64,000 nucleotides of DNA from Oscillospiraceae bacterium (GTDB lineage Bacteria; Bacillota; Clostridia; Oscillospirales; Acutalibacteraceae): NCBI GenBank assembly GCA_902790325.1, contig CADARP010000005.1:63199-127198 (forward strand), written 5' to 3'. Both the position numbers and the translations under genes were made by a program. Below are positions 45,496 through 64,000 of the stretch, piece by piece (the stretch's first letter is position 1; each line of letters begins with the position of its first letter). Under the pieces are notes generated by a model that saw nothing but the letters and a program-made list of their open reading frames with translations, was not told the origin of the DNA and searched no databases.

Positions 45496-48400
45496 TTACG
45501 CATACGCCGGATGACGTCTGCGCCGCCGCAGGATCAGGAACCCTGCCAGCAGGATGAGCGCGCCGCCGCCGCAGTAGAACGTGTATGTGCCGGGTCCGCC
45601 GATGAACGGCAGCGGGACGTCTGTCAGGTTCCAAACGCGGATCTGCCATGTGTCATCGTCCTGTCCGGCGACCCAGTAGCCGTTTGCGTCGTTCTTCTGC
45701 ACGACTTCCGCCGCGCGGCCGGACTGGGTCGCGGTGACGGAACCGGAGGCGACCGTGATGCGGACGGCAGCAATGGGCAGAGCGAATCCTTCGGGCGCCA
45801 CCGTCTCCATCAGGCGGTATTCGCCGAGCGGCAGACTGCCCAGGAACAGGATACCGTTTTCGTCGGTTTCGCCTGTCATGACGGGCGTCGCGTTGCCCAT
45901 GGGACTCGCTGTCAGGTCGTTGAAATCCGATGCGCGGTACAGCGCGAACGTCGCGCCGGTCGTGATCGTCGTATGATTCAGATCGGTCTTCCAGATGGAT
46001 ACCTTGATCCGCTGGGAGTTCGGTATGGTCATGACGTAATTGACCGTGCCGTCCTGCGCGGGTTGCGACGTGGTCAGCGTGACGATGTCCGGGTGGGAGC
46101 CCATCGTGATCTCGCCCGTGTCGCTGACGGTGAAGCGGATGTATGCGGGCAGCGACTGATAGCCCTGCAGTGTGCTGGATTCGCGCAATTCATACGTGCC
46201 GGGCGGCAGCGTATTGTCTAGACGCGGGATGACGCCGTTGGCGTCCGTGACGAGATCTGCGTAGCCGGGCATGGGGTTGAAGTCGATGGTCGTCACGTCG
46301 CCGATCTTGACCTGACGGTGCAGTGCGAAATGCACGCCCGCCAAAGGCGCATGGGTATCCATATCCGTCTTGACCACGCTGAAGCTGCGCGGACGGTTTT
46401 TGACAACCAGAGTCGGCGTGATACCCGCTCCCTGTGTCAGAGTATAGTACTCCGCATTGACGCCGCTGACGGTGACCGTGCCGTTGCTCAGTCGGAGCGT
46501 GATGTCCGTTCCGGGGCCGACATAGTTCTGCGGCGTTGAGATTTCCGTGAGGGTATAGTCGACGTCGTCTCTCAGGAACGCGATGGTGATCAAACCGTCC
46601 GCGTCGGACGTGAATGTTCCGATGAGCGTATCGCTGTTGTCTCTGAGCTCGAACTGCGCGTTCGCAAGCGGCGTCGTGCCGTTCCACTGCGCCTTCCGCA
46701 GTACGATACCGGGACGGTTGTTTGTCGTCGTATCCACGCGGACGTTGGAGTCTGAATCGATCGAGCCCTCGTCGTATAGGACTGTGTACTCAAAATCGGA
46801 CTCCGTCGTTTCGCCGATCTGCGTGCCGCTGACCGTGACATCGCCGTTATTCGCGATCGGTTCGATCGTACCGTATGCCGTGACGACGCCGTCTGAATCG
46901 ACCGTCGGATTGGTCAGCTCGACTTCGCGGATCTTGTACTGCTCGAACGGTACGGCGACGGGAAGTGTCTGGAAATACCAGTACAGCGTTGACTGGTTCT
47001 GTGTAAGCTGCCGTACCGTGCCGGGAACAAGCGTAAGATTCTCTTCGGTGGTGCCGGTGTAGATCGCAAAGTACGTCGGACCGCGCTGTGACATATAATC
47101 CGCATCGGACCAGAGTTTGTTGACACGAAGTCCCCAGCCCTTCAGGTTGCAGACGTCCACATGCGGGTCCTTGCTCGCTTCGATCGTACCCTGCGCGGGG
47201 TCTTCTTCCGTTCCGGTTCCGTTGAGACCCTCCGGATAGAGCATGTATTTCTGCAGCGAATAGCCGTCGGGGATCTCGTAGTCGCGTTCCTCGACCCTGT
47301 ACTGCGTGCCTGCCAGCAGTTCGCGCACCTCGACCGTATAGAAAGCGGGAACCTTGGAGATAGAGCCGTTCATCGAGGTTGTGAAGGTCGTTGCGGCTCT
47401 CTCGGCTGCGGTAAACTGCGTATAATCCGTCTTGCCTGCGCCGAGCGGGGCAAAGCACTGATTCGTGACGTCCCACGTGCAGTACACGCCGTTTTCGTCC
47501 TTGACGTGGTAGGATGCCATGTTGGTGAGCGAAAGGCCGTCCTCGTACTCCGCGCCGAGATACAGACGCATACCGAACAGCGTGGGATCATCGTGCAGCT
47601 CGCGTGTGCCGGTCTCGTCGTACAGCACCTTGCGGAACGTCAGATCGCGCAGCGCCTCCGGGTTGACGTTGTTGCGGTAGTTGACACGCGAACGCACTTT
47701 GGCTGTTTCGTAATCGACGGCGTAGTCCATACGATGGTCGTTGCCGGTGATCTCCGTACCCTCGAGCGTTTGACCGTTTGCCGAGACGCTGCTGTAAACG
47801 TCCGTATTGATGCCGCACTCCACGATCTTGTAGGAGATTGCGTCGTCGGGCAGTTGGATCTCGGCGATCTCGGTCGGCTTGAGTATGAATACACTTTGAT
47901 ATGTCAGACCGTCGATTGTCAGTGTCGGCTTGTATTTCACCGGTGTAATGGTGTCTTTGTAATACACGTGGATGTTCAGATTGTCCTCGGTAAGCAGATA
48001 ATCCGTGTTGTCTTCCGATTTCTTGTACCAGATCTGATACGGATACTCCGCGTGGATGGTTTCCGGCTCGTCCACGTTGCCGAGCTCCTTGCTCAGAAGC
48101 ACGGTGCCGGGCTTGACCGAGGCCAGGTTGAAACGCATGTGCAGGTTGGATGCGCCCGCGCCGCGCTCCATGTAGAAGATGCGCATGGTATGTGTCGAAT
48201 AGGGCTTGAACACATAGTTTCCATGCTCGTTCAGCTCGAACAGATCGTCAACATAGGCCTGCGCCTCCGCGGCGGTGTGCTGGAGTCCGGTGGTCTCGTC
48301 GATGCGTCCGAGGTAGTTGTTATAGAACAGTTCGTACAGCGTCGTAGTCCTGCCGTTGACGTAAACATCGCCCGTGCAGAAGTTGACGTTTCCGGCCAGT

Positions 48401-51207
48401 GCACTGTGGATACCGCCGAGGTCGATGACCAGTTCGCCGTCCACGTACAGCCAGAAGTCATCGTCGCCGGTGAATTCATAGATGATGTCGTGCCCCCACG
48501 CGTCGTGGCCGTTGGGCGTCTGGACGAAGCTGGCCTCCAGCTCCATGCCGAAATAATAGTCCGGATTGCGCACAAGGTACATATGCTCGCTCATACGCGG
48601 ATCATTGCTCGGCAGCGGCTGCGCCAGGGCGTTGTAAAGGTTTTTGGGGTTGAGGGAGGAGAAGTAGCCCGCCTCCAAATCGTTGAACGGCATGAACTGT
48701 CCGTGCTTCAAGGTCGGTCTGTCGCCGGTGTCCATCGTGCCGAGCTCCTCATATACCTTGAAGTCGCCGGTGGTGTGGTCGATGCTCGCGAAGTTCTGGG
48801 TACTGTCGAACTCAAAATAGCCGCTGGCGTTGTAGATGCTCTGGATAAACAGATGGTTGACGTCTTCCAACTGGCTTTCCTCAAACAACTCCGAGAAGGA
48901 CGCGTGCTCGCCCCATGTTGCAAACGGGTAGCCGTCCTCGCCGAGATTCGTGGACAGCAGTCCCGGCACCGTGTACGTGACTGCGCCGCCGACGCTGCTG
49001 TTGAGGAAGCGGTCCTGTTCGTTCGGGTTCGAGTTGCTGTTGTTGGCCTTTGCGGTGAAGTCGATCATCTTCATGGTGATGCCGTGCTGGTTATTGTCGA
49101 CCGTATCGACCAGCGTCAGCGAATCGTCCGCGGATTCATCCTGAATGATGGCAAAGTAGAAATCCGCGGTCTGGTTCAGCAAACAGGACTGGATCTGATC
49201 GTCGTCAACCTTCAGTCCGGCGTAGGAGTAGTTGGCGTCGTCCCAAGCCACGATCGGCGTGTAGTAGTAGCCGTTACGGCGGCCGTTGAGGTTGATGCCG
49301 ATGGGGTCGTCGGACAGGATCTGGCCGTCCGAGATCTGCGGTGCGATGAACTTCTCCGAATACGGATTATAAAGCTCGTAGTAGTAGTTGGGGTCGTTCG
49401 TGCCTTCCCAGTAGTACTCCACAAAGTTCCACAGCAGTGTATTGATGCGGTTGCCGACCCACTTGATGGAATCGCCTGTATCATAGCAGGGCACCAGCGT
49501 GCCGTCGTGATCGACGGCATAGACCTCGTAACGCTTGGTGCTGGGGTTCCAGATACGGGTGTAGAGGATGATGTGCGAGCCGTTTGTCACGCTCGGATCG
49601 GATACGCTGACCTTACGTGCCGAGTACGTCATCATGTAGTCCGGCGTCAGCTCGGTCATCTCTACGAAATTGAGCCACTCGCTGCCGGCGGTGCCGCCGA
49701 CCGAGAAGCCTGTGGCCTGGCTGCCGGAATAGGTTAAGGTGTTGGCGCCCGATTTCAGACAGATCTCTCCGGCGTGGTTGCCGGTACCCGGCACCACGCG
49801 CAGTTTGCAGCTGTCGTCCGGCACGCTGACCAGAGCCGGACCGTTTTCTGTGAGCTGCAGGTATTTCAGACTGCCGCCTGCATTCGCTTTGAGATAGTAC
49901 TCATCGCCGGACACCCACTCAAATGTCCACTCCGTAATGTCGGCGTCGTTGGATACGAAAACCTTGTCGTCGCGGTCGTTTTCCTGCTCCAGAACGACGA
50001 GGTTCATGGCTTCGAGCGCACCGCCGCCGTCCACTTCGCTTGCCATCAGCGCTTTGCCCGTCAGATGACCGGAATAATGCATCAGAGCGACTGTTCTTCC
50101 GTCGAGACCGTAGACGTCATCGCCCACAACGACATAGTTCCAGAAGCCGATCCGGGCGTTCGTATCAAAGTTTGAATTATAGGCAGCGAAAGACTTACCG
50201 CCGGTGCTGCTTGTGCTGTATGACGTACCGCCCTGCATGTTCCAGCAGAAATTGCCGGAGCCTTTGATCTGGAATGTGTCCGCCTGATTGTTGAAAGGCT
50301 CGATCGTAAAGACCGTCGCTTGGCTTTCGGTGTCAAAAGACAGACTGTTTCCGCTTTGCCGGATGTACTGCTTCTGGTGGTTATCGTCGTAGCAGTATGC
50401 CTTGAATTGGTTGGACGTTTCGCTTGTAAACTCGAAGTAGTACAGCGCGGCGTCCGCGGACGGCACATCCGTCGGCGGATACGTTTTCAGAATGCCGGTA
50501 CGCGTGTTGTTGATCCGGAACTGCTCATTTGTGAAGTAGTAGCCGAGAACGTGACCCATGTAAAAACCGCTTTCGGCATGTTCGCGGATTTCATCGATCG
50601 AAGAGAATCGCTGCCAGCCGATATTATCGGCCGAGCCGGAGGGACCGCTGACGATTGCATACGCCGAGAAGCCGCTCGTCTCGAAGCTGACGTCGCTGTC
50701 TGTTACCTCGACGCTTTGCAGCACCTCGGGCGTCTCGTAACTGCCGGCAAAGTGGATTACGTTGACGTCCGCATCCTGTTCGAGCAGCTCGTCCGCGTCC
50801 GTCATGCGGATGCGCACATCCACCGATGAGCCGGCTGCCGGCTGCAGCGACAGGTTGGGATCGGACTTGTCGACAATGGAAATATCCAGCAGCCGCGTAT
50901 AGGAAAGCGAATTGTCGTCGGTATGCAGCGCTTCCTGCGTCTTGCGCACATAGTCGGGATACCGTTCATCTGTTTCCGGTATCTCCTCGACCGCCAGACG
51001 CGCATCGGCAGGAATGCCGGTCGTGTCCCCGAACTGCACGCTGACTTTGTATGTGTTGCCGTCCTGCGTGCGCAGCTTTGTGCTGATCTCGTGCAGAGCG
51101 GACTCTTCGCCGATCGAAGAAACGACAACCGGGACGGAGGAGAGAAGCATGACGAAACAAAGCAGCAGGCACAGTGCGCGCCGCGCGGCAAACACGAATG
51201 AACGCAT
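45496..51207 (-). CDS. Giant surface protein: fibro-slime domain, prealbumin-like repeats, LPFIG anchor
   Basis: 1903 residues. Signal peptide (1-31). Residues ~35-190 are a beta region with SVDVRI and FETSGFSAYAIVSG. Lectin-like stretches follow to ~720. Residues ~735-1010 match the fibro-slime/PA14-like domain: YNASGYFEFDSTQNFAS, FTGDDDFWLYVDGELVIDLGG. From ~1030 to ~1840 there are at least five Cna-B/SpaA-type repeats (LANAQFELRDN, LAGVHFALHR, TTGATFALYRASDF, GTYELRES, GEYRLMET). The end is LPFIGGPG, a membrane helix and RRRRRHPAYA, a wall-sorting signal with Ile for Thr. Likely an adhesin or pilus-like stalk. AAAGGAGGGAG precedes the start. Confidence 0.88.
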   Translation of the reverse strand: MRSFVFAARRALCLLLCFVMLLSSVPVVVSSIGEESALHEISTKLRTQDGNTYKVSVQFGDTTGIPADARLAVEEIPETDERYPDYVRKTQEALHTDDNSLSYTRLLDISIVDKSDPNLSLQPAAGSSVDVRIRMTDADELLEQDADVNVIHFAGSYETPEVLQSVEVTDSDVSFETSGFSAYAIVSGPSGSADNIGWQRFSSIDEIREHAESGFYMGHVLGYYFTNEQFRINNTRTGILKTYPPTDVPSADAALYYFEFTSETSNQFKAYCYDDNHQKQYIRQSGNSLSFDTESQATVFTIEPFNNQADTFQIKGSGNFCWNMQGGTSYSTSSTGGKSFAAYNSNFDTNARIGFWNYVVVGDDVYGLDGRTVALMHYSGHLTGKALMASEVDGGGALEAMNLVVLEQENDRDDKVFVSNDADITEWTFEWVSGDEYYLKANAGGSLKYLQLTENGPALVSVPDDSCKLRVVPGTGNHAGEICLKSGANTLTYSGSQATGFSVGGTAGSEWLNFVEMTELTPDYMMTYSARKVSVSDPSVTNGSHIILYTRIWNPSTKRYEVYAVDHDGTLVPCYDTGDSIKWVGNRINTLLWNFVEYYWEGTNDPNYYYELYNPYSEKFIAPQISDGQILSDDPIGINLNGRRNGYYYTPIVAWDDANYSYAGLKVDDDQIQSCLLNQTADFYFAIIQDESADDSLTLVDTVDNNQHGITMKMIDFTAKANNSNSNPNEQDRFLNSSVGGAVTYTVPGLLSTNLGEDGYPFATWGEHASFSELFEESQLEDVNHLFIQSIYNASGYFEFDSTQNFASIDHTTGDFKVYEELGTMDTGDRPTLKHGQFMPFNDLEAGYFSSLNPKNLYNALAQPLPSNDPRMSEHMYLVRNPDYYFGMELEASFVQTPNGHDAWGHDIIYEFTGDDDFWLYVDGELVIDLGGIHSALAGNVNFCTGDVYVNGRTTTLYELFYNNYLGRIDETTGLQHTAAEAQAYVDDLFELNEHGNYVFKPYSTHTMRIFYMERGAGASNLHMRFNLASVKPGTVLLSKELGNVDEPETIHAEYPYQIWYKKSEDNTDYLLTEDNLNIHVYYKDTITPVKYKPTLTIDGLTYQSVFILKPTEIAEIQLPDDAISYKIVECGINTDVYSSVSANGQTLEGTEITGNDHRMDYAVDYETAKVRSRVNYRNNVNPEALRDLTFRKVLYDETGTRELHDDPTLFGMRLYLGAEYEDGLSLTNMASYHVKDENGVYCTWDVTNQCFAPLGAGKTDYTQFTAAERAATTFTTSMNGSISKVPAFYTVEVRELLAGTQYRVEERDYEIPDGYSLQKYMLYPEGLNGTGTEEDPAQGTIEASKDPHVDVCNLKGWGLRVNKLWSDADYMSQRGPTYFAIYTGTTEENLTLVPGTVRQLTQNQSTLYWYFQTLPVAVPFEQYKIREVELTNPTVDSDGVVTAYGTIEPIANNGDVTVSGTQIGETTESDFEYTVLYDEGSIDSDSNVRVDTTTNNRPGIVLRKAQWNGTTPLANAQFELRDNSDTLIGTFTSDADGLITIAFLRDDVDYTLTEISTPQNYVGPGTDITLRLSNGTVTVSGVNAEYYTLTQGAGITPTLVVKNRPRSFSVVKTDMDTHAPLAGVHFALHRQVKIGDVTTIDFNPMPGYADLVTDANGVIPRLDNTLPPGTYELRESSTLQGYQSLPAYIRFTVSDTGEITMGSHPDIVTLTTSQPAQDGTVNYVMTIPNSQRIKVSIWKTDLNHTTITTGATFALYRASDFNDLTASPMGNATPVMTGETDENGILFLGSLPLGEYRLMETVAPEGFALPIAAVRITVASGSVTATQSGRAAEVVQKNDANGYWVAGQDDDTWQIRVWNLTDVPLPFIGGPGTYTFYCGGGALILLAGFLILRRRRRHPAYA
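45598..45612 (-). other. Wall-sorting motif LPFIG
   Basis: Codes for LPFIG followed by GPGTYTFYCGGGALILLAG and a basic tail. Canonical LPxTG would have Thr at the fourth position. No sortase gene is in the window. Confidence 0.6.
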
Positions 51208-57464: not shown

Positions 57465-57493
57465 TTGACAATCCACACAATATATGGTATATT
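57465..57493 (+). promoter_or_regulatory. SigA promoter, extended -10, of the repeat protein
   Basis: TTGACA (57465-57470), 17 bases ending in TATGG, TATATT (57488-57493). It gives a leader of about 90 bases that holds a short open frame and a hairpin (ACTGCC 57538-57543 with GGCAGT 57548-57553). Confidence 0.88.
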
Positions 57494-57520
57494 TGATATG
57501 TATTAGTATAAGGAGTCTTC

Positions 57521-57592
57521 TTGCCAATGTGCGGTTCACTGCCGGACGGCAGTTTAAAATATGTAGATTCACACTGGGAGGGTGTAACATGA
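57521..57592 (+). CDS. Possible leader peptide, translationally coupled to the repeat protein
   Basis: A 23-codon frame from TTG 57521 (or 21 codons from ATG 57527) follows AAGGAG at 57510-57515. It reads (M)PMCGSLPDGSLKYVDSHWEG, then V-T. Its TGA stop (57590-57592) overlaps the ATG of the giant gene (57589-57591), the ATGA arrangement seen in coupled genes. The ribosome binding site of the large gene lies in its last codons. A hairpin lies within it. Such an ORF could regulate entry of ribosomes into the large gene. It could also be chance, as it is short. Confidence 0.4.
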   Translation: MPMCGSLPDGSLKYVDSHWEGVT

Positions 57593-60500
57593 TAAGAAAC
57601 GTGATGAAAAGGACATTGAGCGTGCTGCTGGTGCTGACACTGGTATTCACGACCTTTGTCATCTTCGACCCGACGGCGTTGTTCCCGACGGCGGAGGCTG
57701 CCACGAGCGCGAAAAACGAGGAGCCGTATTCGCCCCTGTATTTCAACGTGCCGGAGGCAATCTACCTCAAGCCGATCTGGAACTCGTACAAGGCGGAGAC
57801 GACGGGTACGTTCCAATGGTACGTCAACAATACCGTGAACGTCAAAACCGGCGAGCTCACGCCGAACACCGGCGAGGAATCGACCGGTATCGTGCAGTTC
57901 TACTACGCCAATGCGACGGACGTCAAGCTGCAGTATAAGTGGCAGACGGAGCCGGGTTCGGACTACGGCTCCACGTCCAACAAGATCACACTGGGCGGCA
58001 CCGCGCGTGCGCAGAGCACCAACTTCGACATGGCGCAGGTGGAGTCCGGCGTGCACCGCCGCGGTTCTTATCAGGCGAACATCACCGCCGGTACGGCGAT
58101 CCCGTACGCGGCGGGCGTCACGGGTCGCTACATCTGCTGGATCGCGACCTACACGGATCGCCAGGATAACCAGACCAAGCAGGCGTACGCGTACACGTAC
58201 GTCTACAAGCCGTATCCCGCGGCGGCCGGTATCGCCATCCGCTGTAAGAACACCAGAGGCGATGACCACTTCGGCTCGAACCTTGCATGGATCAGCGGCT
58301 TCCATACGCACGACAACGGCGGCGACCGGTATGCGAAGGCGACGACGGGCAAATACCTCGTTCCGTTCTCCTCCTCCGACAGCAGCGGTACGGCAGCCGG
58401 CGAGACAGGCGGTCTCTATAAGCAGATTCCGGATCGCTGGAACGATTCGTCCAACAACAATAACTCCTGGGACTGGCTGACCGAGACCGAGAGCCAGGGC
58501 AACTCGCTCGGCAAGACGTTCAACCTTTTGGGCGGTACCGAGAGCTCGCACAACAGCGGTACGGACTATATTGAAAACTGGACGTTCATTAACGACGCGA
58601 ACATCTACGTCGACATCAGCCGTTACACGAACTACAACCAGATCCCCAACCTGACGGTCGGTCTGCAGGTGACCGACGACGCGGATTCTGCCAGCGGCAA
58701 CTCCGGCGCGTGTTTCATTTCAAACTCCAACACTGCGATCATCAACGGCGATGAGCATTCGGACTACTGGAAAATCGGCCAGTCCGGCGGTCACATGCCT
58801 GACAAGTGGAACTCCGCCCGCAACACGGGCGACCTCTGGTTTTACAAGGGCGACCAGCGCTCCGGCGGCATGGGCGGCGACTACACCGTCTACAATGGCA
58901 AGTGGCCCAAGGCGACGCCGACCTCTGCCGGCAACGGCCGCACCTACATCGAGACCGGCTACTGGAACAAAGACGGCGGCAACGACCAGATCTACAATCT
59001 GGGCGAGATCCAGGTCTATACGTACGCCCACGACAAGTCCGCGCTGCGCAGCGCGTACTGGGAAACGATCAAAAAGTTCCCCAGCCTCTATCTGTCGAAG
59101 GACACGAGCGCCTACACCACCATGATGGGCTACTTCCGCTCCGTCGCCAAGGCGCTGTGTAAGGTCGACGGCGGCAACGACGCGACCGCCGCGTCCAACC
59201 TGGCGGGCGCCAACAGCATCACGATCACGCCGGCGAACCAGTTTACAGTCGCCGCGACGCACTACTCCACCACGGGCAAGACGCTCGGCACCGACACCAC
59301 CCGTCAGATCACGACGGGCGGCAACTACACCGTCTACTCCAATTCTTACAACGGCTACTCCTACGATCCCACGAAGACCACAGTGACCTACGCCGGCGAT
59401 TCCACGGCATATAAACCCTTTATCTTCCGTGACTGGAAGGACAGCTCGTGTTTCGCGGTCGTCGGCGGTTCGGGCAACGGCTCGGTTGCTTTCAGCTCGG
59501 ACATCCTGACGCTGACCACCACCGCCGCGGACAACAAGACCGAGTACACCACCGGCAACTGTAAAGCCAGCGGCACCAACTGGCACTACTTCTCCGTCAC
59601 GGCGGGCGCCAAATACTCGATCTGTTACAGCTATTCCGGCACTGCCGATCCGGAGTTTCTGGTCGCCTACTACAAGTCGGACGGCTCTTACCTGAGTTAC
59701 TCGTGGTACCATGACGGCTACCGGTCGCGTTCCGCGACGAACAACAAGTGGAGAACGTACGTCCAGTCGTTCGAGGTGCCTTCCAACGCGGCGTACGCGA
59801 TCCTCTCGTTCTCCGCCTATCCGACCAAGGGTACCGGCAAATACAGATACGTCAACGTCGTAAAGGAACACGACCGTTCCAACAAGACGTATAAATTCTA
59901 TTATGAACCCATCAATTACACCGTCACGTTCGACGTGAACGGCGGCAGCAGCTACTCGAACAAGACGTACAACATCGAGTCCACCGCAACACTCGGCACG
60001 CCCAGCAGAACGGGTTATTCCTTTACCAACTGGAAGGTAACGGCGACGGCGGGCAACTGGGCTGCGGTCGGCAATACCTACAGCGCGAGCGAGTCCCTGA
60101 CCGGCAAGTACGGCAACGTCACGCTGCAGGCGCAGTGGTCGATCAACAGCTACAAGCTGACGATCAAGCCGAACGGCGGCTCGTGGAACAATACGACGAG
60201 CGATACGGTCATCACGCAGAACTACAACACGACCTATACCGTTTCCGGTACGCCGACCAGAACGGGCTACACGTTCTCGAGCTGGACGAAGGGCGGCACA
60301 GGCACGTGGTCGTCGCCGACGTGGACGTTCGGCGCGGGCGACGGCACCCTGACCGCAAACTGGACGGCAAACACCTACAAGGTCACGTTCAACGTCAACC
60401 ACGATTCCATACCGGTCAACATGTTTGCGTTCAATGCGAACAGCGGCAAGACGTCGGTCAACGGCGGCTCGTCCAACGGCATCACGTATTCCTATGATCC

Positions 60501-63381
60501 GGCGACCGGCATCATCACGCTGAACGGTACGGCGTCCGCGACCGGCTCCACGTTCAGCTTGAACTCGATCGCGACGGAAGCAGGCGACTATACGATGACC
60601 GCACAGATGGTCGGCGGCACTGCGACGTTCTCGTCGTCCTACGCCTGCCTGGTGCTCGAGCCGAAAAACAGCGGCTCCAGTCCGGCGTCCGGCAGAAAGA
60701 ACATGGACTTCAAACTGACCGCCAGCGGCGCCAGCGCGTCCAAGAAGATCACGTTTACCAACGCGAACGAAGCGAACCAGCTGCAGTTCTGGATGTGGAT
60801 GGACGTATCCAACGGCGGCAGCATCGTGCTGAACAACGTGCAGCTCAAGCTCGCCATGTACAAGGCAAGCAGCGCCGCATCGGAGTATCCGCCGTCCGGC
60901 CGCACCGTTACCTTCGGCAGCGCCTACGGCACGCTCCCGACCGTGTCCCGCACCGGCTACACATTCAACGGCTGGCATGTAAACAGCGCGACCGGCACGA
61001 CCGTGACCGGCACCACCAACGTGGCGACTTCGAGCGACCATGTGCTCTATGCCGGATGGACTGCCCATACCTACACCGTCGCCTACAACGGCAACAACAA
61101 CACCGGCGGCAGCACGTCGAGCTCGTCGCATACATACGGCACCGCCAAGAACCTGACCGCCAACGGCTTTACGCGCGCACATACCGTTACATACAAGAAT
61201 CCGGACGGCACAGCCGTGTCCGGCGTCTCCAACGGCACCGCGACCTATGCGTTTTCCAACTGGTCGACGCAGGGCGCCAACGAGACCGCCGAATACAGCA
61301 AGGATTTGACTTCGGCAAGCAGCTCGAACGATTTTAAGTCCATTTCCTTCTCTGTGAAAACAGGCGATGTGTTCGTCGTCGAATACGACGCCAAGGTCAC
61401 GGGTACCGGAACGGGTTTAACAAACTATTTCTACAACAACACGTCAACAAACGTCCAGTGCAGCTATGTTGAGCGGCTGTCTTCCAACGGCAAGAGCAAC
61501 CTCTCCCAGGCGCGCTCCGGGACGAACGACGGCAACAACACGATTTCTCCGTCCGAAAACGGCGGTACATACGTCCATTACCGCACGACGTATACATTTA
61601 ACACTGCGGGCAATACGTGTAACAAGACACTGCTCTTCCGTGCGTGGCCCGGCAGCGTTTGCTACGTCAAGAACATCAAGGTCACGAAAGTGAGCGGCAC
61701 CAATATCTACACCAACAGCCAGTCCGTCACCAACCTGACCTCGACCAACGGCGGCACGGTGCAGATGTACGCCAACTGGACGACCGGTTCTGTCACGCTG
61801 CCCACGCCGACCCGCGAAGGCTATACCTTCGGCGGCTGGTTCTATGAGACGAGCCTGACGACCAGCGCAGGCGCGGCTGGCGCGGCCTTCACGCCCATCC
61901 AGAACACGACGCTCTACGCGAAGTGGACGATCAACAGCTACACGCTGACGGTCAATCCGAACGGCGGTACGTTCAACAGCACCACGAGCAATTCTACCTT
62001 CACACAGAATTACGGCACGACCAAGACTGTCGGTGCGGCGACCAGAACGGGCTACACGTTCACAGGCTGGACAAAGTCCGGCACCGGCTCCTATGCCGCG
62101 AACAGCGACCCGAAGACGGGCGGCACGTTCACCTACGGCGCGGGGGCAGGCACGCTGACCGCGGGCTGGACGGCGAACACGTATACCCTGACCTTCAACC
62201 CGAACGGCGGTACGTTCGTCGCGGCGGGCGGCTTCTCCGCGGGTACCTCGAACCAGTCGAAGACTGTCACATACGCCAGCACCTACGGCGCATCGGACGG
62301 CAGCAAGACGTGGCCGACCGATCCGACCAGAACGGGCTACACGTTCGGCGGTTGGAAGAACGGCTCGACGACCTTCACCAGCAGCGGAACGGTCAATATC
62401 ACGGCGAATACCACCATCACGGCGGCATGGACGGCCAAGACGTTCACGCTGACCTTCAACCCGAACGGCGGTACGTTCGTCGCTGCGGGCGGCTTCACGG
62501 CGGGCACCTCGAACCAGTCGAAGACCGTCACGTACGCGAGCACCTACGGCGCATCGGACGGCAGCAAGACGTGGCCGACCGACCCGACCAAGACGGGTTA
62601 CACGTTCGGCGGCTGGAAGAACGGTTCGACGACCTACACCAGCGGCGGCACAGTTTCGATCACGGCCAATACAACCATCACGGCAGCATGGACGGCCAAG
62701 ACATTTACGCTGACCTTCAACCCGAACGGCGGTACATTCGTCGCTGCGGGCGGCTTCACGGCGGGTACCTCGAACCAGTCGAAGACCGTCACGTACGCCA
62801 GCACCTACGGCGCGGCGGATGCGAACAGCAAGACATGGCCGACCGATCCGACGAAGACAGGCTACACGTTCGGCGGCTGGAAGAACGGCTCGACGACCTT
62901 CACCAGCGGCGGAACGGTTTCAATCACAGCGGATACCACCATCACGGCGGCATGGACGGCGAACACCTATACCCTGACCTTCAACCCGAACGGCGGTACA
63001 TTCGTCGCGGCGGGCGGCTTCTCCGCGGGCACATCCAACCAGTCGAAGACCGTTACCTACGCGAGCACCTACGGCGCATCGGACGGCAGCAAGACCTGGC
63101 CGACCGACCCGACGAAGACGGGCTACACGTTCGGCGGCTGGAAGAACGGCTCGACGACCTATACCAGCTCCGGCACGGTTTCGATCACGGCAAATACCAC
63201 CATCACGGCGGCATGGACGGCGAATTCGTATTCCGTCGTATTCAACGCGAACGGCGGCGGCGGAACAATGGCCAACCAGAGCTTCACCTACGGAACGGCG
63301 AAGGCTCTGTCCCAGAATTCGTTCCAGGCTGGGCGACAAGCGCTTCCGGCGCGGTCGTTTACACCGACAAGCAGAGCGTAA
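57589..63381 (+). CDS. Giant InlB B-repeat surface protein (main frame up to first frameshift)
   Basis: 1930 residues in this frame. Signal peptide after a basic start (MIRNVMKRTLSVLLVLTLVFTTFVIF), likely cleaved after AEAA. Residues ~40-770 are a large beta-rich region without a recognised family. From ~780 on there are many InlB B-type (Flg_new) repeats, marked by FNPNGG, YTFGGW and AAWTA. Four of these, at 62188-63234, are almost identical. Translation in this frame drifts into QAGRQALPARSF and stops at 63381, because one G seems missing at 63327-63328; the true protein continues in another frame. It is likely a wall or membrane-bound adhesin. GGGAGGGTG precedes the start. Confidence 0.85.
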   Translation: MIRNVMKRTLSVLLVLTLVFTTFVIFDPTALFPTAEAATSAKNEEPYSPLYFNVPEAIYLKPIWNSYKAETTGTFQWYVNNTVNVKTGELTPNTGEESTGIVQFYYANATDVKLQYKWQTEPGSDYGSTSNKITLGGTARAQSTNFDMAQVESGVHRRGSYQANITAGTAIPYAAGVTGRYICWIATYTDRQDNQTKQAYAYTYVYKPYPAAAGIAIRCKNTRGDDHFGSNLAWISGFHTHDNGGDRYAKATTGKYLVPFSSSDSSGTAAGETGGLYKQIPDRWNDSSNNNNSWDWLTETESQGNSLGKTFNLLGGTESSHNSGTDYIENWTFINDANIYVDISRYTNYNQIPNLTVGLQVTDDADSASGNSGACFISNSNTAIINGDEHSDYWKIGQSGGHMPDKWNSARNTGDLWFYKGDQRSGGMGGDYTVYNGKWPKATPTSAGNGRTYIETGYWNKDGGNDQIYNLGEIQVYTYAHDKSALRSAYWETIKKFPSLYLSKDTSAYTTMMGYFRSVAKALCKVDGGNDATAASNLAGANSITITPANQFTVAATHYSTTGKTLGTDTTRQITTGGNYTVYSNSYNGYSYDPTKTTVTYAGDSTAYKPFIFRDWKDSSCFAVVGGSGNGSVAFSSDILTLTTTAADNKTEYTTGNCKASGTNWHYFSVTAGAKYSICYSYSGTADPEFLVAYYKSDGSYLSYSWYHDGYRSRSATNNKWRTYVQSFEVPSNAAYAILSFSAYPTKGTGKYRYVNVVKEHDRSNKTYKFYYEPINYTVTFDVNGGSSYSNKTYNIESTATLGTPSRTGYSFTNWKVTATAGNWAAVGNTYSASESLTGKYGNVTLQAQWSINSYKLTIKPNGGSWNNTTSDTVITQNYNTTYTVSGTPTRTGYTFSSWTKGGTGTWSSPTWTFGAGDGTLTANWTANTYKVTFNVNHDSIPVNMFAFNANSGKTSVNGGSSNGITYSYDPATGIITLNGTASATGSTFSLNSIATEAGDYTMTAQMVGGTATFSSSYACLVLEPKNSGSSPASGRKNMDFKLTASGASASKKITFTNANEANQLQFWMWMDVSNGGSIVLNNVQLKLAMYKASSAASEYPPSGRTVTFGSAYGTLPTVSRTGYTFNGWHVNSATGTTVTGTTNVATSSDHVLYAGWTAHTYTVAYNGNNNTGGSTSSSSHTYGTAKNLTANGFTRAHTVTYKNPDGTAVSGVSNGTATYAFSNWSTQGANETAEYSKDLTSASSSNDFKSISFSVKTGDVFVVEYDAKVTGTGTGLTNYFYNNTSTNVQCSYVERLSSNGKSNLSQARSGTNDGNNTISPSENGGTYVHYRTTYTFNTAGNTCNKTLLFRAWPGSVCYVKNIKVTKVSGTNIYTNSQSVTNLTSTNGGTVQMYANWTTGSVTLPTPTREGYTFGGWFYETSLTTSAGAAGAAFTPIQNTTLYAKWTINSYTLTVNPNGGTFNSTTSNSTFTQNYGTTKTVGAATRTGYTFTGWTKSGTGSYAANSDPKTGGTFTYGAGAGTLTAGWTANTYTLTFNPNGGTFVAAGGFSAGTSNQSKTVTYASTYGASDGSKTWPTDPTRTGYTFGGWKNGSTTFTSSGTVNITANTTITAAWTAKTFTLTFNPNGGTFVAAGGFTAGTSNQSKTVTYASTYGASDGSKTWPTDPTKTGYTFGGWKNGSTTYTSGGTVSITANTTITAAWTAKTFTLTFNPNGGTFVAAGGFTAGTSNQSKTVTYASTYGAADANSKTWPTDPTKTGYTFGGWKNGSTTFTSGGTVSITADTTITAAWTANTYTLTFNPNGGTFVAAGGFSAGTSNQSKTVTYASTYGASDGSKTWPTDPTKTGYTFGGWKNGSTTYTSSGTVSITANTTITAAWTANSYSVVFNANGGGGTMANQSFTYGTAKALSQNSFQAGRQALPARSFTPTSRA
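62188..63234 (+). repeat. Four near-identical 261/264-bp tandem repeats (InlB-type)
   Basis: Units begin at 62188, 62449, 62710 and 62974 (periods 261, 261 and 264), each encoding about 87 residues from LTFNPNGGTFVAAGGF to ITAAWTA. The third unit has one extra codon (AADANSK instead of ASDGSK). Differences are few and mostly Thr/Ser, Lys/Arg and Gly/Ser swaps. A further copy starts at 63973 and runs off the window. Confidence 0.93.
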
Positions 63382-64000
63382 GCAACCTTACGGCGACGAA
63401 CGGCGGCACGTTCAATCTGTACGCGAAGTGGACGCAGGACACCTACTCGATTTCGTATGATCTTGCGGGCGGCACGAACGCGTCCGGCAATCCTTCGTCC
63501 TACACGTCGAGCTCGAGCGCGATCACGCTTGCGAACCCGACGAGAACGGGCTATACGTTCACGGGCTGGACGAAGCAGTATGTCAGCCCGACGTGGACGA
63601 GCGGCTTTATTAACCTGAACACCGGCGTCATGGAAACGAACAGCAGCTATCCGAACACGATCTTCACGAATCCGCTCTATCTGGAGAGCGGCGTGCAGTA
63701 TACGATCAGCGGCGGCCTTACGAGTGGTTCCCTGCGCTGGAGACGTTTCAATACGTCGGGCGTTTATCAGGGCAACGGCGCGAGCGGTGCTACATTCACG
63801 CCCTCTGCAAATGAATTCGTCAAGATCATGTACATTGAAAGCGCCACGGATGCGCAAAAGGCCAACACAGTCGTCACATCCGGCAAAAACTACACAAGCT
63901 CGACGGTTGCGATTCCGGCAGGCAGCGGGCAATATCAAGTTTACGGCGAAGTGGTCGGCGAATACCTACACCCTGACCTTTAACCCGAACGGCGGTACAT
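63328..64000 (+). pseudogene. Continuation of the InlB repeat protein in shifted frames, partial
   Basis: From 63327 the sense continues in a frame shifted by one base: GWATSASGAVVYTDKQSVSN, then NLYAKW, TRTGYTFTGWTK and more beta-rich sequence up to VY at 63944. One extra G at 63945-63946 then returns the frame to that of 57589, giving AKWSANTYTLTFNPNGG at the window end. So the two one-base changes cancel, and the stretch between is out of phase. It may be an assembly error or a true lesion. As it stands, the downstream part is not translated from the main start. Confidence 0.75.

Follow-up and report, generated by a model that had tools for sequence, protein, structure and literature searches.

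Two frame breaks inside repeats of a giant repeat-protein gene near a contig end

A giant repeat-protein gene at the 3' end of the window (the whole stretch of 64,000 nt analysed here) leaves its reading frame and later returns to it, which raises the question of whether the gene carries a special decoding signal, is damaged, or is wrongly assembled. The gene is of an ordinary kind, either frame-broken or mis-assembled, and no special decoding signal is at work. The choice between these two is considered last, after the place and size of each break.

The gene and its reading frames

The host is an uncultured gut-type bacterium with a genome of 2.87 Mb in 52 contigs (95% complete). The contig in question is 127,521 bases long, and the window stops 323 bases short of its end. 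The giant gene starts at 57484, runs past the window and is still unfinished at the contig end. Its first open frame encodes 1965 aa with a signal-peptide-like N-terminus, and matches PF09479 (Flg_new) in 8 stretches (E 2.4e-53, 178.6 bits, cut-off 27) and TIGR02543 (List_Bact_rpt) with 113 bits (cut-off 20.95). These tandem matches, above the curated cut-offs, place the product among the Flg_new or Listeria-Bacteroides repeat proteins (InlB B-repeat type), with which it shares tandem repeats of ~75 aa, a GY-x-F-x-GW core and secretion. Unlike those proteins it is giant (1,965 aa before the first break), has an inserted domain between the halves of one repeat, and is frame-broken in this copy. 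Near it on the minus strand (45496-51207) lies an apparently intact gene for a surface-type protein of 1,903 aa, the C-terminus of which has a hydrophobic stretch followed by a basic tail. The features of the broken gene are as follows.

57484-63381, plus strand: 5' part of the giant Flg_new/InlB-B-repeat secreted or surface protein gene (ORF list; PF09479; TIGR02543)
63325-63327, plus strand: frame break 1, from position modulo 3 = 1 to 0 (codon likelihood profile; family repeat spacing)
63328-63926, plus strand: segment coding with position modulo 3 = 0, comprising the rest of the broken repeat, one Flg_new repeat and the inserted domain (codon log-odds; Flg_new 38.4 bits)
63379-63381, plus strand: TAA stop between the breaks, in the frame of a ribosome passing break 1 (ORF reading)
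63444-63578, plus strand: further Flg_new repeat in the middle segment (Pfam Flg_new, 38.4 bits)
63597-63923, plus strand: inserted domain of ~109 aa between the two halves of one repeat (homologue search)
63924-63927, plus strand: frame break 2, back to position modulo 3 = 1 (profile optimum; spacing; intact homologue)
63928-64000, plus strand: 3' part, original frame regained, continuing to the contig end (frame reading)

Reading frames were scored with a codon model, for which the giant gene and its siblings supplied the training codons, and frame breaks were called with a joint two-strand frame model that sets a cost on each break; the latter replaced a single-strand version prone to false calls on the shadow strand. 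The joint model places exactly two frame breaks in the whole window, both in the giant repeat gene. Before 63320 the original frame (position modulo 3 = 1 from 57484) is favoured by +112 nats, between the sites the frame one base back (modulo 0) scores +104 nats while its two alternatives score -268 and -213, and after 63950 the original frame, which is kept to the contig end, scores +85. In the segment between the breaks the Flg_new domain (38.4 bits, cut-off 27) is found in the middle frame alone. The openness of this frame is no evidence of coding, since the same frame also stays open over the 1,488 nt before break 1 without coding there. Both breaks are genuine features of the sequence as it stands, and the sequence-only reading, which had reported two frame changes with a segment coding in a shifted frame between them and the original frame afterwards, is borne out by both the codon log-odds and the joint model.

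Place and size of the breaks

The switch profile for break 1 peaks at 63325-63327, within a repeat of the class M-xxQ...L-x-x-N-x-F...GW. In this class the spacing from N-x-F to GW is exactly eight residues in all 25 repeats found in the genus (25/25), and in a looser class it is eight or nine residues in 45 of 47. At the break, the F codon is complete at 63324 and the first base of the GW codons is 63327. Judged by the family spacing, break 1 is a 22-nt deficit, because 2 nt stand where repeats of the same class have 24. In relatives, repeats of this class pass the corresponding position with no stop codon.

For break 2 the profile peaks at 63924, and positions 63911-63929 lie within ~2.5 nats of this optimum except for a dip at 63914-63916. 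The site proposed previously, 63945, scores 14.4 nats below it. The spacing from AG to G[ND] is two residues in 20/20 comparable repeats and also in the intact-frame homologue of the inserted domain (G193:C14), while here the AG and G[ND] codons are separated by 4 nt (63924-63927) versus the 6 nt of the rule. On this measure break 2 is a 2-nt deficit. The two deficits, 22 + 2 nt, sum to 24, and for this reason the original frame returns after break 2. Intact copies of both affected repeat types are present in relatives. The inserted domain has no Pfam match, and a search of 300 genomes of the family gave a single homologue for it, the G193:C14 protein with 37% identity.

The sequence-only reading had called the two changes compensating, but this holds as arithmetic only. 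The TAA at 63379-63381 lies in the frame of a ribosome that has passed break 1 and more than 500 nt ahead of break 2, so that the second break cannot rescue the first. As the stop precedes it, the second event is not open to selection, and any second frame-changing indel would have about an even chance of returning to the original frame. With the stop between the two breaks, the sequence as given would yield a truncated protein of ~1,965 aa and leave the 3' part untranslated. To this extent the locus fits an indel-broken gene (pseudogene or null allele), having a frame broken relative to intact homologues and a truncated product. Annotation pipelines would give two or three fragments here.

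An exact 25-base query spanning the break-1 junction had no match across the genome contigs, blastn against plasmids gave no match, and no orthologue with both sites appeared in a DNA search of 98 genomes or a protein search of 300. One relative among the GTDB contigs, a Clostridia MAG from goat rumen, matches the middle segment in its first part only.

Decoding, base errors and separate genes

The sequence-only reading had proposed, as one option, two short G-run errors, with one G missing at 63327 and one G extra at 63945. This agrees with the frame arithmetic only, and is very unlikely, given that the family members (25/25 and 20/20) put the deficits at 22 and 2 nt. A one-base change at break 1 would leave the repeat without seven of the eight residues found in 25/25 relatives, and for break 2 the 14.4 nats lost at 63945 tell against an error there. 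Programmed ribosomal frameshifting or transcriptional slippage, which would join the three segments, could account for the coding bias in the middle frame. It has almost no chance of being right: no slippery X-XXY-YYZ heptamer occurs in 63230-63400 in any phase, in agreement with the doubt already voiced about this option, the deficits in conserved repeats are 22 and 2 nt rather than a 1-nt shift, and the sites are not common to siblings, all 25 same-class repeats being intact at that place. A gene using a programmed -1 frameshift would have both a heptamer and a conserved site.

The case that had been set as a refutation, two genes divided by a conserved stop, would divide the locus into a repeat protein cut short at 63381 and a second gene downstream. 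Open frames do lie on both sides, but the breaks fall inside single repeats which in relatives are read straight through, without the stop, the downstream coding register starts in the middle of a repeat, and the start codons of the middle frame (63630, 63693 and 63828) all fall within the inserted domain. Inspection by eye of the sequence ahead of these three starts gave no sign of a ribosome-binding site, and separate genes are extremely improbable.

Phase-variable surface genes with simple-repeat tracts have been described (PMC3711429), and the locus resembles them in joining a surface protein with loss of frame. It differs from them in that direct reading of 63321-63340 and 63911-63950 reveals no homopolymer or short tandem tract at either site. 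Phase variation, which the sequence-only reading had also allowed for, requires such a tract in its simple-repeat form and is not supported.

Real deletions or an assembly fault

This leaves the pair of candidates that the sequence-only reading had rightly named, namely faulty assembly and two real indels, and the sibling genes bear on the choice. The gene is one of a set of ~45 open frames with Listeria-Bacteroides repeats (92,153 aa in total) from this genome and its congeners. The giant genes of this genome have three breaks in 75.8 kb, and those of congeners have two in 200.7 kb; the breaks are clustered in few genes (2, 2 and 1), and more than 30 siblings are intact. Three of these breaks lie in siblings, one of them with a 4-base microhomology. 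This one is in the same genome (G000 contig 2, ~253,577; L028:13445-13697), where a second giant repeat gene has lost ~127 nt of one repeat, the preceding repeat (97% identical) serving as reference. The joint lies on a 4-nt ACAA overlap of the flanks, and the frame of 4,128 aa is followed by one of 1,549 aa with a dockerin-like C-terminus. Lacking a long shared word at the joint, this break is unlike the repeat mis-join of a k-mer assembler, which needs one. In a congener (G003 contig 33; L073), a giant repeat gene on the reverse strand is broken twice, at ~4,023 and 5,930, in the same sense and without compensation.

Breakage of the giant gene by real, recent small deletions, giving a truncated protein, is put at an even chance and slightly favoured over an artefact. 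Two out-of-frame deletions would have occurred inside two repeats, one of ~22 nt removing the core of a repeat and one of ~2 nt immediately behind the inserted domain, most likely by slipped-strand or microhomology deletion, to which repetitive genes are prone. Homopolymer errors do not account for deficits of 22 and 2 nt, the window is otherwise free of frame breaks, the siblings carry the same type of lesion, and the gathering of breaks in few genes is the pattern that genes no longer functional should show. The deletions would be present in cells, and probably recent because the 3' part is free of other decay, with no stop in the coding register and a strong codon bias. This same state counts against real deletions in that both events must then be recent, as do the position of the breaks, 998 and 398 nt from the contig end, and the lack of any selection for the second event behind the stop.

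A consensus or assembly fault, in which the last kb of the contig derives from thin or mixed-strain coverage and the repetitive gene is truly intact, stands at a little below even. The contig stops within the repeat array, 323 nt beyond the window, both breaks fall within 600 nt after 63 kb of clean sequence, and the coding on either side of them is undecayed. By our estimate, three random breaks in 75.8 kb would put two within 600 nt in ~5% of cases, a figure suggestive of a common local cause; moreover, singleton frame breaks confirmed by homology are expected to stem from sequencing errors and not from real indels (PMC3711429). Against a fault stand the deficit of 22 nt, which is not a base-calling error, the expectation that a repeat mis-join would use a long shared word and would in most cases keep the frame, and the similar lesions far from contig ends, 22 kb away in G000 contig 2 and mid-contig in G003 contig 33. 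A search of the genome for a near-exact copy of the contig end, as a cause of the assembly break, found none.

The GeneTack survey places singleton frame transitions of this kind in an indel-or-sequencing-error class (PMC3711429). The present gene resembles that class (an indel or pseudogene, or a sequencing error) in being a singleton, unconserved, without recoding signal and with homology on both sides, and differs in having two breaks, opposite in sense and separated by 600 nt, with deficits of 22 and 2 nt. Literature searches for giant repeat surface proteins in assemblies from metagenomes gave nothing that bears directly on the case.

The main value of the case is as a caution, since single-base readings of frame breaks in long repeat proteins can mislead; family spacing together with codon likelihood is the better guide to the place and size of a break. 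If the deletions are real, the large repeat adhesins of the genus would decay through small slipped deletions. A wider proposal, that its giant Flg_new-repeat genes lose and regain full length via out-of-frame microhomology deletions within repeats, is a long shot; if true, populations would mix truncated and full-length surface proteins, and would vary in phase or length with no simple-repeat tract involved.

Other genes of this genome also look frame-broken. A BspA-like leucine-rich-repeat surface protein is apparently broken at ~168,427 on contig 9 (L128), 3.3 kb from the contig end, and on contig 2, at ~128,480 and 131,315 (L117), two ordinary-looking genes less than 3 kb apart, by eye acetyltransferase-like and hydrolase-like, may belong to a decayed cluster.
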